Below, in pieces: positions 21,866 through 39,700 of a DNA stretch of 64,000 bases. The notes under the pieces are model-generated. The model was not told the origin of the DNA and did no database searches. It was given only the letters and a program-made list of their open reading frames with translations. The stretch covers positions 124,001 to 188,000 of the forward strand of contig JAMCPM010000013.1 of the NCBI GenBank assembly GCA_023382335.1. The letters are read 5' to 3'. The DNA is from Actinomycetota bacterium (GTDB taxonomy: Bacteria; Actinomycetota; Thermoleophilia; BMS3ABIN01). A program made the position numbers and the translations under genes. Within the stretch, counting starts at the first letter, position 1; every line of letters starts with the position of its first letter.

Positions 21866-21895
21866 TTGGTTTTCCTTGATCGATTAGTGGATAAT
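21866..21895 (+). promoter_or_regulatory. Candidate sigma-70-type promoter of Moco operon
   Basis: TTGGTT and GATAAT are separated by 18 bases; the predicted transcription start lies at the 5' edge of the riboswitch. Confidence 0.45.
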
Positions 21896-21901
21896 CTAGA
21901 T

Positions 21902-22036
21902 ATATCTCCGAGCGGCTCCTTCTAAGGCCGGCGGCTTTCTTAAGCCCGCGGCTAGGAATGGGCAGCCGACGGCCGCCTCTGGCGGCCAAAGGGTCTGCCG
22001 GGAAACTGACAGGCCTCCCGTGTTTGGAAAGGAGAC
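21902..22036 (+). promoter_or_regulatory. Moco (molybdenum cofactor) riboswitch upstream of mobA
   Basis: The leader holds the elements I associate with the Moco RNA motif: CTCCGAGC near the 5' side, a perfect hairpin GGCCGCC-TCT-GGCGGCC (21971-21987), then GGGTCTGCCGGGAAACTGAC followed by AGGCCTCCCGTG and a terminal GGAAAGGAGA. The closing stem pairs TCTCC (21905-21909) with GGAGA (22031-22035), which is the ribosome-binding site of mobA, so ligand binding would block translation. It precedes a complete cofactor-synthesis operon, as this class usually does. Confidence 0.78.
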
Positions 22037-22041
22037 ACTAA

Positions 22042-23247
22042 ATGCCTCGCGATTCAGCGATGGAGGGCTTCTCCATCGCCATTCTCGCCGGCGGTGAGAG
22101 CACTCGCATGGGCGCCGACAAGGCGCTCCAGGACCTGGGAGGGAAACCTGTCATCGCCCACGTCATCGATTCGCTCGCGCCTCTGGCGAACGACATCTAT
22201 CTGGTCGCACGCGACGTCGGCGCCTACGAACGCTTCCAGCTGCCGATCTGCGCCGACCAGTACAGCGTGCGCTCCTCGATGGTAGGGATCTACTCGGCGC
22301 TGGCTGCCTCCCGCAATCAATACTGTTTCACGGTGGCCTGCGACATGCCCTTCACCGAACCGGGGCTGGTGCGGCATCTGGCGTCGCTGGCCGGGGGCCA
22401 TGACGCCGCCGTGCCGGTGAGTCCACGCGGCCGGGAGCCGCTGCACGCCATCTATTCGCGGCGCTGCCTGGAGCCGATGCGCCGGCAGATCGAAGCCGGC
22501 GATTTTTCCATCAGCAACCTGCTCGATACGCTCGAAGTCCGTTATGTCGATTCAGCCGAGATGGCGCCTTTCTGCGACCTTGGCATGGTTTTCCTCAATG
22601 TCAACACCGTGGTCGACCTCGAGGAGGCTGCGCAACTGGCGCCGCGCATCAACCGCTGGCGCGAACAGGCCATGTTGAGCGAGACGGGCCCGGGGCTGCC
22701 GCCGCTGGTCTGCTTCGTCGGCAACAAGAATTCCGGGAAGACGACCTTTCTGGAAAAGCTGGTGCCGGTGCTTGCGTCCCGCGGAGTCGTGGTGGCCTTC
22801 CTCAAGCATGACGTGCATGGATTCGAGATCGACCGGGAGGGGACCGACACCTGGCGCCTGGCGCGGGCGGGCGCGGTGCAGACGGTGATCTCTTCCCCCG
22901 GCTGCGTGGCATCGGTGCAAAGCGTTCGCGGGGAAAAGGAGCTCAATGAGCTGCGTCAGGGCCTTGGCGATTTCATCGACCTGGTGATTGCCGAGGGTTT
23001 CAAACAATCCGCGGCCGACAGGATCGAGATCTCGCGCAGCGATTGTTCCCGGCAGCTGGTCTGTGCGGAGGACGATCTGATCGCCGTGGTCTCCGACCGC
23101 CCCGACGCCGCCAGGACGGTGCCGGTCTTCGGCCTCGACGACTTTGACGCCGTCGCCAACCTCCTGACTATCCGTTACGGACTCGGGGCGGGCAGGACTG
23201 ACGGCACGATTGCGGATGGCGGCCTCGCGGAGGTCCCCGGGCCATGA
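22042..23247 (+). CDS. mobA: MobA-MobB fusion, molybdenum cofactor guanylyltransferase / GTP-binding protein
   Basis: 401 residues. The N-terminal ~200 residues are MobA, which links GMP to molybdopterin: nucleotide-binding motif ILAGGESTRMGADKAL and VACDMPF. From ~residue 228 a MobB domain follows with P-loop GNKNSGKTTFLEKL and the HDVHGFEIDREGTDTWR motif. MobB assists guanylation. Fusion of the two is known in other bacteria. The bis-MGD product is the cofactor form needed by formate dehydrogenase encoded 2.7 kb downstream. First gene of the riboswitch-controlled operon; its stop overlaps moaA. Confidence 0.93.
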   Translation: MPRDSAMEGFSIAILAGGESTRMGADKALQDLGGKPVIAHVIDSLAPLANDIYLVARDVGAYERFQLPICADQYSVRSSMVGIYSALAASRNQYCFTVACDMPFTEPGLVRHLASLAGGHDAAVPVSPRGREPLHAIYSRRCLEPMRRQIEAGDFSISNLLDTLEVRYVDSAEMAPFCDLGMVFLNVNTVVDLEEAAQLAPRINRWREQAMLSETGPGLPPLVCFVGNKNSGKTTFLEKLVPVLASRGVVVAFLKHDVHGFEIDREGTDTWRLARAGAVQTVISSPGCVASVQSVRGEKELNELRQGLGDFIDLVIAEGFKQSAADRIEISRSDCSRQLVCAEDDLIAVVSDRPDAARTVPVFGLDDFDAVANLLTIRYGLGAGRTDGTIADGGLAEVPGP

Positions 23248-25721: not shown

Positions 25722-25732
25722 GTTGCTGGCAC

Positions 25733-25817
25733 GAGATGTGACTGGCGTTCAGTGGATAACCACTCGGGAGCATCTCTGCTGGCTTGAAAAACCAGCCGAT
25801 TGGCCGGACGCCTGGGC
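25733..25817 (+). promoter_or_regulatory. ZTP (pfl-motif) riboswitch upstream of formate dehydrogenase
   Basis: The aptamer is recognisable from its conserved blocks: GTGACTGGCG (25738-25747), hairpin AGTGG-ATAA-CCACT (25751-25764), GGGAGC (25766-25771), and CGCCTGGGC (25809-25817), which forms the pseudoknot-containing second domain. GAGAT (25733-25737) pairs with ATCTC (25772-25776), and GCTGG/CCAGC forms the linker hairpin. The class senses ZMP/ZTP, which accumulate when 10-formyl-tetrahydrofolate is short. A stem (TCCAGA/TTTGGA) and a six-U run at 25846-25851 follow and could be the termination platform, although the exact switch is unclear. Confidence 0.88.
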
Positions 25818-25901
25818 CCTCCAGAAAATTTGGACGGCTTGGGTGTTTTTTCATCTCCGGAGCCTTCCACCGGACCTGACTTTTGGTTAGAAAGGGCAAA
25901 A

Positions 25902-28900
25902 ATGGCCGATCTTCCTCATCACGAGATAATCGCAGAGAGCGGGCCGCTGGTCAGGTTCTTCATTGACGGCCGTTATCTGCAGGTGAACCCCCGCATGACC
26001 ATCCTTGAGGCCGCGCAGGCGAATGGCATCGAGATTCCCACGATGTGCAGCGACTTCCGCATCGCTCCCTCGGGCCGCTGCGGCCTCTGCGTGGTCGAGG
26101 TCGTCGGCAACGGCATCGTCAACTCCTGCCAGACGCCCGTGGTCGACGGCATGGAGGTCATCAGCGAATCGCCCGAGATCGCCGACATCCGCCGGCAGAG
26201 ACTCAATGAATACCTGACCACCCATAACGCCTATTGCGAACCGCCGTGCCATAACGCCTGTCCGGCGCGCATCGATATCCCCGCCTACGTCGGCGCGATC
26301 GCTCGTGGAGACGACGCCGAAGCCATCAGGATCGTCAAGAAGCGCCTGCCGCTGCCGCGCATCATCGGCCGCATCTGCCCGCGCCCCTGCGAGAGCGCCT
26401 GCCGCCGCACCCAGGTAGACACCGAGCCCGTGGCGATCTGCCAGCTGAAGCGTTTCGCCGGCGACCGGGCCCAGGCCGATGCGGCCCTGGTCGATGAAGA
26501 GATGGCGCCGCCGAGCGGCAAGAAGGTGGCGGTCATCGGCGCCGGCCCCAGCGGTCTTTCAGCCGCTTACTATCTGTCGCTGAGCGGACATCAGGTGACG
26601 ATCTTTGAAGCCAATTCCAAAGCCGGCGGCATGATGCTGACCGGCATTCCGCCCTTCCGCCTGCCCCGCGAGGTGATCCAGGAGGAGGTTGATTCCATCC
26701 TGGGGCTGGGAGTCGAGCTGAGGCTGAATAGCCGCCTCGGCAGGGATTTCACCCTCGACAAGCTCAGGTCGGAGGGTTATGCCGCCATCTATCTGGCCAT
26801 TGGCGCCCAGCAGGGTTCCACCGGCCGCATCGAGAACGCCGAAGGCGATGGCGTTTACTCCGCAGTCGATTTCCTGGCGCAAAGCAACGCCGGCGACTGG
26901 GAAACTCCCCTCGGCAAGACGCTCGTGATCGGTGGCGGCTTCACCGCCATGGACGCGGCCCGGTCGGCGCTGCGGCTAGGAGCCGGCGAGGTGACGGTCG
27001 TTTACCGCCGTTCCCGTGAGGAGATGCCGGCCACCGCGGAAGAAGTCAATGAGGCCGAAAACGAGGGCGCCAGTCTGTCGCTGCTGACTTCGCCCGTATC
27101 CATAGTCAGGGAAGGGGGCCGCGTCACCGGCGTCGTCTGTCAGAAGATGGAGCTGGGCGAGCCCGACGAGAGCGGCCGCCGCCGCCCCGAGCCCGTCGCC
27201 GGCTCCGATTTTACCATCGAGGCCGACACCGTAATCCTGGCTATCGGCCAGCAGGTCGACCGCGAAGGACTGGAGACCTGCCTGGCACTGAGCAAGTGGG
27301 ACACCATCGAGGCCAACAAGCACACGCTGGCCACGACCGTCGACGGCATCTTCGCCGGCGGCGACTGCGAGACCGGCCCCGCCACCGTGGTCGAGGCCAT
27401 TGCCGCCGGACGCCGCGCAGCGGTCGCCATCGATGCATATGTCACCGGCCAGGACCCCAAGGAAGTCTGCCTCTCGCCGGCGGCCGGACTCAAGCCGCGC
27501 CGTCCGAGGATGTTCGACATCGGCGCCAAGCCGCTCGTGGAAGACGAGCGTCATCACATGCCCGAGCTCGCCGTTCCCGAACGCAAAAACTTTAACGAGA
27601 TCGAGCTCGGTTACGAAGAAGCCGACGCCCGGGCCGAGGCCGCCCGGTGCCTGCAGTGCACCTGCCACGCGGTCGCGGACTGCGAACTCAGGCGCCTGTC
27701 CATCCGCTACGGGGCCGGGACGAAAGAATTCAGAGGAGAGGGCCAGTTCCCCCTGTTCGACGGCTCGCCGATCCTGCAGCTGGACCGCAAGCGCTGTATC
27801 CGCTGCCATACCTGCGTCCGCGTCTGCGACGAGTTCGAGATGAACCATGTCTACACGGTCGACAAGGACCAGTACCCGGCATTACGCGGCGCCACCTACC
27901 GTGAATCGGGGTGCACTTCGTGCGCCTCGTGCGTCGACGCCTGCCCGACCGGCGCTCTTGTCAATGCGCAGCTCAAGAATACGCGCGAGTGGGAGCTGAC
28001 CAGGGTGACGACGACCTGCCCGCTGTGCGGCACCGGTTGCAACTTCGACCTCAATGTAAAAGACGGGAAGGTCGTCGGCGTCACCACCATCGCCGAGGCT
28101 CCGGTCAACCGCCGGGCTCTCTGCGTCAAGGGACGCTACCACACCGACCTGATAAACAGCCCCGATCGCCTGACGACGCCGCTGATCAAACGCAACGGCG
28201 GGTTCGAGGAGGCGACCTGGGACGAAGCGCTCGACCTGGTGGCTTCAAAATTCATGGAAATCAAACAGAGGGACGGCGCCGACGCCCTGGCTACGCTGAG
28301 CTCGGCGCGCTGCACCAACGAGGAGAACTGGTTGATGCAGAAGTTCACGAGGGCGGTGATGGGCACTAACAACGTTGATCACTGTGCCCGCACCTGACAC
28401 GCTCCCACGGTGGCCGGTCTGGCCATCTCCTTCGGAAGCGGCGCCATGACGAATTCCATCAGCGAGGTGGGATTCTACGATGCGCTCTTCATCATCGGCT
28501 CCAACGCCACAGAGGCGCATCCGATCATCGGCGGCAAGATGAAGCGCGCCGCCCGCCGCGGCGCCCGCGTCATCGTCGCCGATCCCAGGCATATCGAGCT
28601 GGTCGATTATGCCGAGCTCTGGCTGCGATTGAAGCCGGGCACGGACATGGCACTCGTCAACGGCCTTATCAATATCATCATCAACCAGGGCTGGGCGGAT
28701 GAGCGGTTCATCGAGGAACGCTGTGAGGGCTACGACGCCATGTGGAAAGTCGTCAAGGATTACACGCCCGATGTCGTCAGCGGGATCACCGGCATCCCGG
28801 AAGAAAAACTCAGCGCCGCCGCCGATATCTACGCCCACACTCCCAGGGCCGGCATCTTCTACACCCTGGGCATAACCGAGCACACCACCGGCACCGCCAA

Positions 28901-34503: not shown

Positions 34504-36594
<2,091 letters not shown>

Positions 36595-36641: not shown

Positions 36642-37142
36642 TTACTGAATCGGGGGCGTCGGGGTCGGCGTCAGACCCCGTGCCATGTACTCGGCATCTA
36701 TCTTTGCCCTTATGTCCTTGAGTGACAAGCCCTGTTTTTGTCCCCGGCTCACGGCCAGAGTGATATCCACTCATATGTCTCAGCCGGCGCCGTGCTTGTC
36801 GAAAGCGATATCGTTGCCGTCGCGGGACTTGATATAGCAGTCAAGATTGTCCTTGTGGTTCGCTTCCTGACCGCAGCCGCAATAGCAGGGAATCTGCTTT
36901 AGGACGTCAGGGTTGTCGATGGCGAACTGGTAGGCTTCAGCCGCGCCCTTGGGGGCGGTCGATGCATAGGCGAAATCCGGTGGCTTGGGAGCCGCAGACG
37001 CGGTATCCCCACCCTTGGTCATCACCCAGCCGAGCACGCCGCCGACGATGCCCACGGCAAATATCAGCCCGGCGGCGACGCCGATCCAGGTTGTATTTGA
37101 CATGCCGCTCTTCTTAACGGGCTTGCTTTTCTTCTTAGCCAA
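36642..37142 (-). CDS. PCYCGC-family membrane protein, predicted selenoprotein with U-x-x-U
   Basis: Reading two in-frame TGA codons (36780-36782 and 36771-36773) as selenocysteine gives a 166-residue protein that ends at TAA 36642-36644, directly before a strong terminator. Layout: basic N-terminus, transmembrane helix (~18-41), then IPCYCGCGQEANHKDNLDCYI (C86, C88, C90) and FDKHGAG-U121-DI-U124-VDITLAVS, followed by LSLKDIRAKIDAEYMARG. As I remember the family (PF13798), relatives carry HG-x-x-C-x-x-C-x-D here and the same helical tail, so both UGA sit on the Cys positions. Start TTG with AAGGTGG. It is the third gene after ArsR and a CDF exporter. A thiol/selenol metal-binding or redox role is inferred. 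Confidence 0.85.
36730..36782 (-). promoter_or_regulatory. UGA codons and candidate SECIS hairpins of PCYCGC selenoprotein
   Basis: After the first UGA a hairpin GAGTG-GATAT-CACTC lies 8-22 bases downstream. After the second, CTGGC-CGTGA-GCCGG places its loop 18-22 bases downstream, the same spacing as in fdhA. Each loop has a G in its first two positions, as bacterial SECIS elements usually do, although neither has the GGUCU loop. Confidence 0.55.
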
Positions 37143-37167: not shown

Positions 37168-38091
37168 CTAATGTTCATGATTCAGATTGCAGTACGGCCC
37201 GGAGATATCGCAACGGTCGCATTCGAGTTCGAGAGTCGAGTGGATTATTCCGAAATCGCGAGCCAGTTTCATTCTCAGGTCTGCCAGGATGCGCCCGCCC
37301 TCACTTATCTTGACGTCGTCAACCATGACATGGCAGCTCAGGGCATATATCTCTGACCCGAGTGTCCAGATATGCATATCGTGGACATCCCTTACGCCGT
37401 CCTCCTGTTTCATTTCCTCTATCACCCGATCGACGTTGATACTGCGCGGGGAACTTTCGAGGAAGATTTCCAGCGTCTCCTTAATAATTTGCCATGCGCC
37501 CCATAAAATAGCCAGTCCCAGCAGGGCGCTCACCAGCGGATCCACCGGATACCAGCCCGTCGCGAGAATAACGAATCCTGCAACGACCACTGCCGCCGAG
37601 GCGGCCGCATCGCCTAGAAGATGCAGGATGGCGCTGCGGATATTTATATCGCCATGCGCCCGGTTCCGCAGGGTCCAGACTATAACCAGATTAGCACAAA
37701 GAGCCAGCGTAGCCGTAATAATCACCAGGGCTCCGCCGACCGGCTGAGGATTTAAAAAACGATGGTAAGCCTCGTAAAAAATCCAGACGGTCACCGCGAC
37801 CATCACCAGCGAATTGATGAGGGCGGTGAGGATGCCGGTCCGGTGGTAACCGAAGGTCTTCTCGGCCGTCGGAGGCTTGCGGGCCTGCACCAGGGCGAAC
37901 CAGGTGATGCCCAGGGCCGCCATGTCGGTGAAGTTGTGGACGGCGTCGCTGATGAGCCCCAGGCTTCCGGCCACGAGTCCGGCAGCCACCTCGATTATGA
38001 CGATCAGCAGGTTGAGCCCGATTCCCGCAGCCAGGCCGCGCTTGATGCTGGCGGAACCGCCCTCGGACCGGTCGGAGGCGTGTACGTGCAC
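37168..38091 (-). CDS. Cation diffusion facilitator (Zn/Cd/Co efflux)
   Basis: 307 residues from GTG at 38091, placed two bases after the ArsR stop with AGGAGG just before it; a longer reading would run over the ArsR gene. Six transmembrane helices with the CDF metal motif (LISDAVHNFTDMAALGITWFA), a His-rich loop region and a cytoplasmic C-terminal domain (DVHDMHIWTLGSEIYALSCHVMV). Exports divalent metals such as Zn2+ or Cd2+ in exchange for protons. Co-transcribed with its ArsR regulator and the selenoprotein gene. Confidence 0.92.
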   Translation of the reverse strand: MHVHASDRSEGGSASIKRGLAAGIGLNLLIVIIEVAAGLVAGSLGLISDAVHNFTDMAALGITWFALVQARKPPTAEKTFGYHRTGILTALINSLVMVAVTVWIFYEAYHRFLNPQPVGGALVIITATLALCANLVIVWTLRNRAHGDINIRSAILHLLGDAAASAAVVVAGFVILATGWYPVDPLVSALLGLAILWGAWQIIKETLEIFLESSPRSINVDRVIEEMKQEDGVRDVHDMHIWTLGSEIYALSCHVMVDDVKISEGGRILADLRMKLARDFGIIHSTLELECDRCDISGPYCNLNHEH

Positions 38092-38093
38092 GG

Positions 38094-38525
38094 TCAGTCC
38101 TCCTCGCCGGACGTGTGCTTCAGGTGGTCCAGTCCCTGGGTGAAGAGCTTGAGGACATGGTCGTCGTCGAGAGAGTACCAGGAGACCCGCCCTTCGCGGC
38201 GATACCGGACCAGCCGCGAGGTCCTGAGCACTCGCATCTGGTGCGAGACCGCCGACTGGGTCATGTTGAGAGCCGAGGCGATGTCGCAGACGCAGAGCTC
38301 TCCTTCCCCCAAAAGCGATATGATCCTCAGCCGCGATGGATCGCCCATGACCTTGAATATCTGGGAGAGCTCGACGGCGGCATTCCAGTCGATGGCGTTC
38401 TTCTCGAGCTTCTCGACCAGGTCGGGATGGATGCACTCGACATCGCAGACGTACTCCGTTTCCGGGCGCTGTTGCCGGGAGAGCGGTTTCTTCCCTGAAC
38501 TATGAATAGATGAACCCATGCTCAT
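38094..38525 (-). CDS. ArsR/SmtB-family metal-responsive repressor (CadC-like)
   Basis: 143 residues. Winged helix with AVELSQIFKVMGDPSRLRIISLL and recognition helix MTQSAVSHQMRVLRTSRLVRYRREGR. ELCVCDIA in the alpha-3 helix supplies the CxC metal-sensing site, and CDVECIH near the N-terminus could add ligands as in CadC (Cd/Pb/Zn). It probably represses its own three-gene operon. The ATG at 38525 or 38519 is possible. Confidence 0.93.
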   Translation of the reverse strand: MSMGSSIHSSGKKPLSRQQRPETEYVCDVECIHPDLVEKLEKNAIDWNAAVELSQIFKVMGDPSRLRIISLLGEGELCVCDIASALNMTQSAVSHQMRVLRTSRLVRYRREGRVSWYSLDDDHVLKLFTQGLDHLKHTSGEED

Positions 38526-38578: not shown

Positions 38579-39649
38579 CTAGTAGACCGTGACCGTCACG
38601 GTCCGCACACCCCAGGCATATGCTTCGCCGCAGGGAAGCCAGACATCGATGCGGTTGCCCTGGATGGCGCCGCCGGTGTCGGCGGCGATGGCGTCGCCGT
38701 ATCCGGAGACATGCACACGGCTGCCCAGCGGAATCACACTCGGGTCAACCGCGATGACGCCGTGCCCGACGCGCATGCCCGTGGCCGTGGTGCCTTCCAG
38801 GCAATAAGAGGTTGCTTCCATGGTATAGCTCGATCCGCCGGCCGGGGGAGGCGAGTTATCGTAACCGCCGCCGCCATCAGACCCCGGAGACGACGTCACT
38901 TGCTGCTGGATCTCGTTCATGCGGGCCTCGATGGTTGCCGCTTCGGCCTGCGCCGAAGCCAGCTGGCCGTCAGTGGCTAATTTCTGGCTCTTGAGGGAAT
39001 CGACTGTCTCCTGCTGGTGGCCTTTGGCGGCGACCAGGTTGGACTCGGCGGTGTTGAGCTGTTCGATGGTGCCGGCGAGCTGGTTCTGTTTGTCGGAGAG
39101 GCTGGCGATCTTTTCCTCGACGCCGTTCTTGGCGTCCTGGAAGGAGCTGATGAGAGTGCGGTCCTCGTCAGCGATGTAATTGATCATGTCGACGCGGTTG
39201 AGGAAGTCGGAGAAATCGCCGGCGCCCATGACAACCTCCAGATAGCCGACGTCGTTGCTCTTGTACGTGCCCTTGAGCCGCTTCTCCAGGGCGTCTTGGC
39301 GACTGGCCAGCTCAGCCTGATATTCATTGAGGTGCTGCTGCTCTACTGCGATGGAAGCCCTGATCTCGTCGAGGCGCGTACCGGTATCGGTGATCTCGTT
39401 GCTGTAACGGGACACCTCGCTGTCTACGGCCACAAGGTCGGAGACAGCCTGCTGGTAGTTCGCATCGATTTCCTGTGACCGCGCCTGCAGGTCGCCGACC
39501 TGCTGGTTGGCAGAGTCCAACTCAGAGGGAGTCGCCAAAGCGGAAGGAATAGCGAGAAGCGGGATGATGAGAACGGGAAGTAAAAATATTAATTTTGGCA
39601 GAAATGAAGTTTTGTGTTTGTCAGTCTTTTTGGTAGAGCCCGCGTGGAT
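38579..39649 (-). CDS. Secreted coiled-coil protein with C-terminal 3D domain
   Basis: About 356 residues. Signal peptide (KLIFLLPVLIIPLLAIPSALA), a long coiled coil with Gln/Glu/Asp-rich heptads (residues ~40-240, PcsB/YkvT-like), a Gly/Ser/Pro linker, and a 3D domain with its three aspartates (GVIAVDPSVIPLGSRVHVSGYGDAIAADTGGAIQGNRIDVWLP). It resembles Rpf/YabE-type peptidoglycan-cleaving proteins. No canonical start follows the GGAGG site at 39655-39659; ATC at 39649 is five bases after it, while GTG 39700 and TTG 39661 have no site. The start is therefore uncertain. Confidence 0.85.
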   Translation of the reverse strand: MHAGSTKKTDKHKTSFLPKLIFLLPVLIIPLLAIPSALATPSELDSANQQVGDLQARSQEIDANYQQAVSDLVAVDSEVSRYSNEITDTGTRLDEIRASIAVEQQHLNEYQAELASRQDALEKRLKGTYKSNDVGYLEVVMGAGDFSDFLNRVDMINYIADEDRTLISSFQDAKNGVEEKIASLSDKQNQLAGTIEQLNTAESNLVAAKGHQQETVDSLKSQKLATDGQLASAQAEAATIEARMNEIQQQVTSSPGSDGGGGYDNSPPPAGGSSYTMEATSYCLEGTTATGMRVGHGVIAVDPSVIPLGSRVHVSGYGDAIAADTGGAIQGNRIDVWLPCGEAYAWGVRTVTVTVY

Positions 39650-39700
39650 AACGTCCTCCAATATTTGCTTACAGTACACCCATCTGGCTCGAATCCCCAC

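Follow-up and report, generated by a model that had tools for sequence, protein, structure and literature searches.

In the window, i.e., the whole 64,000-nucleotide stretch of Actinomycetota DNA that was analyzed, a minus-strand gene of the PCYCGC family (PF13798) is interrupted by two in-frame TGA codons, and the explanation that we favor, with moderate confidence, is that it encodes a membrane-anchored, extracytoplasmic selenoprotein with a U-x-x-U motif, made with the help of one shared SECIS and engaged in handling zinc, or a zinc-like metal, at the cell surface beside an efflux system. Under this explanation, both members of a conserved C-x-x-C would be selenocysteine, with SelB and tRNA-Sec decoding both UGAs via one hairpin situated 26 and 17 nt downstream of them. 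The U-x-x-U, along with the cysteines of the CYCGC segment, Cys102 and His117, would constitute a probable site, facing outward from the membrane, for soft-metal binding and/or diselenide redox chemistry, and co-expression of the protein with an SmtB-like repressor and a ZnT-like exporter would make it likely that it helps to handle such a metal there. Sequence evidence supports the frame, the Sec/Cys columns, the SECIS-like hairpin, the decoding machinery and the operon, and the features concerned are the following:

37142-36642, minus strand: PCYCGC (PF13798) gene, a predicted double selenoprotein gene, with a TTG start, 166 aa including predicted Sec121 and Sec124, and a TAA stop
37026..37085, minus strand: N-terminal transmembrane anchor, residues about 20-39, predicted from hydropathy, with a Lys-rich segment before it
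36870..36890, minus strand: PCYCGCG segment, residues 85-91, with Cys86, 88 and 90 invariant
36782-36780, minus strand: in-frame TGA 1, predicted Sec121, Cys or TGA in 40/40 aligned homologues
36773-36771, minus strand: in-frame TGA 2, predicted Sec124, Cys or TGA in 40/40 aligned homologues
36742..36760, minus strand: predicted bacterial SECIS hairpin CUCUGGC-CGUGA-GCCGGGG, loop 36753-36749
36617-36593, minus strand: intrinsic terminator-like hairpin and T-run (GGCGCAC-CCAG-GTGCGCC-TTTTTTT) 3' of the TAA, read from the sequence
37168..38103, minus strand: CDF cation exporter (PF01545 + ZT_dimer), with ZnT8 as its nearest solved relative and an uncertain start codon
38094..38525, minus strand: ArsR-family repressor, closest solved relative SmtB (a zinc sensor)
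38579..39700, minus strand: PcsB coiled-coil/3D-domain gene, the conserved upstream flank of the orthologous site
34510..36594, plus strand: convergent gene, named from its sequence and which we take to be a ligA-like DNA ligase, a conserved neighbour at the orthologous site

On re-reading the minus strand, the coordinates that the initial annotation had given for the frame, the TGAs and the TAA were all found to be right. The TTG start at 37142 lies 25 bases past the stop of the CDF gene, the residues DI separate the two TGAs, and past TGA 2 the frame runs on for 42 codons (VDITLAVSRG...TPPIQ) up to the TAA at 36644-36642. Scored with Sec entered as Cys, the read-through product matched PF13798 with 87.5 bits (cut-off 25) over residues 64-163, a span that includes both TGAs, and homologues do not end before that point. 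In addition, nucleotide differences in the tail downstream of the TGAs cluster at third codon positions (15, 18 and 50 by codon position), and its dN/dS of 0.05-0.57 between closely related pairs, being below 1, places it under purifying, protein-level selection. The match to residue 163 and this selection bear out the earlier suggestion that the continuation is the normal tail of the family.

The proposal that both UGAs replace cysteines was supported as well, since in an alignment of 40 diverse homologues columns 121 and 124 are Cys or TGA without exception and, when Sec is entered as Cys, are invariant along with Cys86, 88, 90, 102 and His117. Fourteen distinct U-x-x-U genes were identified in 12 related genomes, nearly all of them, as far as the group is named, MAGs of Thermoleophilia or of other Actinomycetota, with both TGAs at the identical two columns and no other stops; the source genome itself has a second PCYCGC copy (L001), also with both TGAs. 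That the same two TGA columns recur in 14 genes, that the PF13798 score extends across them and that the tail has a low dN/dS indicate that the read-through frame is not due to chance. PF13798 genes are present in all 19 genomes of the source organism's family (source genome included), where they are U/U, U/C or C/C at exactly columns 121/124, so that the relatives with one or both Cys that had been sought do exist. Chloroflexota relatives are U/C or C/C and those of Bacillales are C/C, and no C/U form was found among the PF13798 homologues examined. On a tree built without columns 121 and 124, about three changes are required to account for the U/U label. In two congeneric genomes (loci L014 and L023, on G004:C2 and G005:C153), the exporter is followed by a tandem pair of PCYCGC genes, whose orthologous second copies differ at codon 124, with TGC in L014 (U-x-x-C) versus TGA in L023 (U-x-x-U). 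A PF13798 gene in Chloroflexota (L180) has Arg at the first Sec/Cys position (FGRDIC), where its relatives have TGA, perhaps because the Sec codon was lost recently or through a sequence error.

The ArsR/CDF operon noted in the initial annotation was confirmed, and its two genes could be described more closely, as coding for a repressor of the SmtB type and a transporter of the ZnT type. SmtB was the best solved match of the repressor (3.8e-26), with the region of its C-terminal D-x-H...H metal site aligned, and the best solved matches of the CDF protein were ZnT8, ZnT3 and ZnT4, with the H-x-x-x-D motifs of both transport helices aligned. Based on these two resemblances, zinc is likely the metal of the operon, and it is from this neighbourhood that we infer a link of the PCYCGC protein to zinc. 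At 13/13 loci examined, U/U genes lie directly behind a CDF exporter, the order being ArsR, sometimes a small CDF-like protein, CDF and then PCYCGC (at a few of the U/U loci no ArsR gene was found, or it falls outside the stretch covered), whereas the ArsR-CDF cassette occurred at 0/7 loci of U/C orthologues between the same flanks, i.e., the pcsB/3D gene and ligA (Fisher p=1.3e-5 for U/U versus U/C, with shared ancestry left in). U/C and C/C relatives also occur without an exporter, and C/C paralogues and the Chloroflexota forms adjoin membrane 4Fe-4S proteins and COX2/cupredoxin-like proteins, which argues that the PF13798 family is not zinc-only.

From the N-terminal anchor and the positive-inside rule, the PCYCGC domain probably lies outside the membrane; N-termini resembling a lipobox occur in several U/C and C/C relatives. 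In the AlphaFold model, confidence is high from roughly residue 51 onward (block mean pLDDT 90-98), and the tail helices belong to the confidently modelled domain (pLDDT above 90). No solved structure was found to be related to the PCYCGC protein by sequence, and a Foldseek search with its model returned nothing significant, the top two matches being CcmH structures at E 2.7. The C-terminal helical hairpin can be aligned with the profile of CcmH/CycL, the thiol oxidoreductase of cytochrome c maturation (hhalign 88% over 40 columns), a weak likeness that serves as no more than a lead, the C-x-x-C of CcmH being placed differently from that of the PCYCGC protein, and Pfam CcmH was weakly matched in 2/40 members (best E 0.14).

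This resemblance bears on the foremost alternative, which we consider rather unlikely, namely that the protein is indeed a double selenoprotein but its U-x-x-U is purely redox, acting on envelope proteins or on metal-site cysteines as a diselenide/thiol oxidoreductase, with the zinc operon incidental or the exporter's thiols being what is protected. Such a role would be in keeping with the UxxU and UxxC pairs of other families, which lie mostly in thiol-redox folds, and with the presence of membrane 4Fe-4S, COX2/cupredoxin-like and DsbD-type genes beside the Chloroflexota genes and the C/C paralogues. However, the linkage of the U/U form to the SmtB/ZnT-like cassette is strict, and the match to CcmH falls short of significance in Foldseek (E 2.7) and in Pfam (two members, best E 0.14).

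The bacterial SECIS model has a loop of 3-9 nt with a G in the first two positions, a stem of 4-16 bp, a spacing of 16-37 nt and an energy of at most -7.5 kcal/mol (PMC13188914 Fig. 2A). The hairpin in the window fits it for both UGAs, having 7 bp, the 5-nt loop CGUGA with G second and an energy of -9.1 kcal/mol, and its loop starts 26 nt after UGA1 and 17 nt after UGA2, so that one SECIS can serve both. A hairpin of 6-7 bp with a 5-nt loop CGUGN is found at exactly the same distances in 14/14 U/U genes, although four of these, all in relatives, are weaker (-6.3 to -7.0) than the limit of the model. Its pairs are kept in 96.8% of cells across 18 sequences, as opposed to at most 45% for slid controls, and 0/500 shuffles matched it on paired cells and covariation score, these covariation and register statistics being drawn from related sequences. 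Compensatory double changes were seen at two pairs; an A-U to C-G change adjoining the loop converts the codons GAC..CTC to GCC..AGC, so that the amino acids differ as well. Folded by energy as an isolated RNA, the 61 nt downstream of UGA1 favor a different structure (z -1.0), and the SECIS call thus rests on comparison and local stability. A second SECIS dedicated to UGA2 was considered and rejected, as no separate conserved element was identified and the one candidate, GAGUG-GAUAU-CACUC, overlaps UGA2 and is not kept in relatives. No bacterial case of two UGAs with one SECIS was found in the literature covered by the search.

It is improbable, in our view, that only UGA1 is read as Sec and that UGA2 stops a sizeable share of the products to give a regulated short form. 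Double read-through should be inefficient, and many relatives need the first Sec alone, but the tail past UGA2 is conserved at the protein level in the U/U genes, a stop there would truncate the domain within its confidently modelled part, and UGA2 is close enough to the loop to be within SECIS range. Of the U/C genes of Chloroflexota, 12/13 have a hairpin at 21 nt whose loop is CGUGA (or CGGGA), i.e., 12 nt from codon 124 and outside the 16-37 nt range, and none of these genes is U/U. The U/U form was found only with the loop at 26 nt (Fisher p=2.5e-5, shared ancestry left in), which suggests that an older single-Sec SECIS at this distance happened to allow a second Sec.

Genes for selenocysteine insertion, for which the initial annotation had proposed a check, were all found in the source genome: selA, selB and tRNA-Sec (anticodon UCA) are clustered on contig 16, and selD is on contig 14 (G000:C14:29557-30489), where the best match has one TGA, from which SelD may be a selenoprotein itself. 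Across the family, selB scored above the cut-off in 18/19 genomes and an unmistakable tRNA-Sec (67 bits or more) was present in 15/19, and the genomes without one or the other may be incomplete assemblies. One genome with a U-x-x-C gene (L109/G330) had no selB above the cut-off, this MAG perhaps being incomplete. In Chloroflexota, selB was found in 24/39 genomes regardless of whether the form was U/C or C/C, hence these provide no clean co-occurrence test. Within the window, the UGA reported earlier in fdhA was verified as an in-frame TGA at 28395 (plus strand; ...ARTUHAPTVAG), in a sequence context typical of formate dehydrogenase.

tRNAs that read opal codons are known from other systems, and relatives have Cys at both positions, so one could envisage that the UGAs are read as Cys or another residue via a suppressor tRNA or a reassigned code. 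We regard this as very unlikely, given the standard tRNA-Sec(UCA) with selA, selB and selD in the genome, the SECIS-consistent hairpins beside the TGA codons and, as regards global reassignment, the use of TGA as an ordinary stop for homologous genes in the same family. Two stops within one frame could also be the mark of a tail decayed after a nonsense mutation, or of a sequencing error, but 14 distinct genes in 12 genomes with exactly these TGAs, no other stops and a dN/dS indicative of purifying selection rule this out for practical purposes.

The statement in the initial annotation that no PCYCGC selenoprotein had been described proved to be wrong, as PF13798 is already catalogued as the predicted selenoprotein family OS_HP4/CYCXC, a UxxC form with one Sec (PMC13188914, PMC9312934), under which it appears with PF13798 in a 2026 review. 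The NCBIfam entry NF041379, 'CYCXC family (seleno)protein', matches the window protein with 81.2 bits, below its curated equivalog cut-off of 90. As this known family shares both the Pfam domain and the C-x-x-C site, with Sec first, a novel selenoprotein family is excluded; the difference is that its members are UxxC with one Sec, whereas the window protein is UxxU with two predicted Sec, a form absent from the PF13798 entry of the selenoprotein catalogue. SelL/Prx-like proteins, the NF041115 metal-binding protein and the FmdB family likewise have U-x-x-U for C-x-x-C, but none belongs to PF13798, and they are distinct in name and domain. The repressor and exporter resemble those of the SmtB/CzrA-CDF zinc efflux operons, down to aligned metal-site residues, and differ from them in having a third gene, that for the predicted double selenoprotein, behind the exporter. 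New in PF13798, then, are the U-x-x-U double form, the register of the shared hairpin and the linkage to a zinc cassette.

A bolder reading, which we offer only tentatively, is that one SECIS drives two Sec insertions nine bases apart, that its register determines in which C-x-x-C genes a second Sec can arise, and that zinc efflux has a dedicated partner in the resulting surface diselenol, a role for which no description was found for any selenoprotein. The natural series of C-x-x-C, U-x-x-C and U-x-x-U in one family, of which the tandem-copy orthologues differing at the second codon form part, makes the cost and benefit of a second selenium directly measurable. The 26/17 nt register, set against the 21/12 nt register of Chloroflexota that has never been seen with a second Sec, lets a SECIS spacing rule yield a specific prediction. 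Should the zinc link hold, a role in metal export would be added to a selenoprotein family without an assigned function.

Several other observations were made in the course of these analyses. The only Rfam matches in the window were two riboswitches, one for molybdenum cofactor (21894-22050, plus strand) and one for ZMP/ZTP (25728-25824, plus strand), the latter directly before the fdhA frame and slightly overlapping it. At the Chloroflexota loci L059-L123, PF13798 genes adjoin those for a COX2/cupredoxin-like protein, a Fer4_5 membrane protein and a small DUF1573-like protein (a likeness judged by eye, with no Pfam match for the one tested), possibly a copper or respiratory cluster. At four loci in the source organism's family (L138, L143, L145 and L151), a RelA-like gene is immediately followed by a separate U-x-x-C paralogue.
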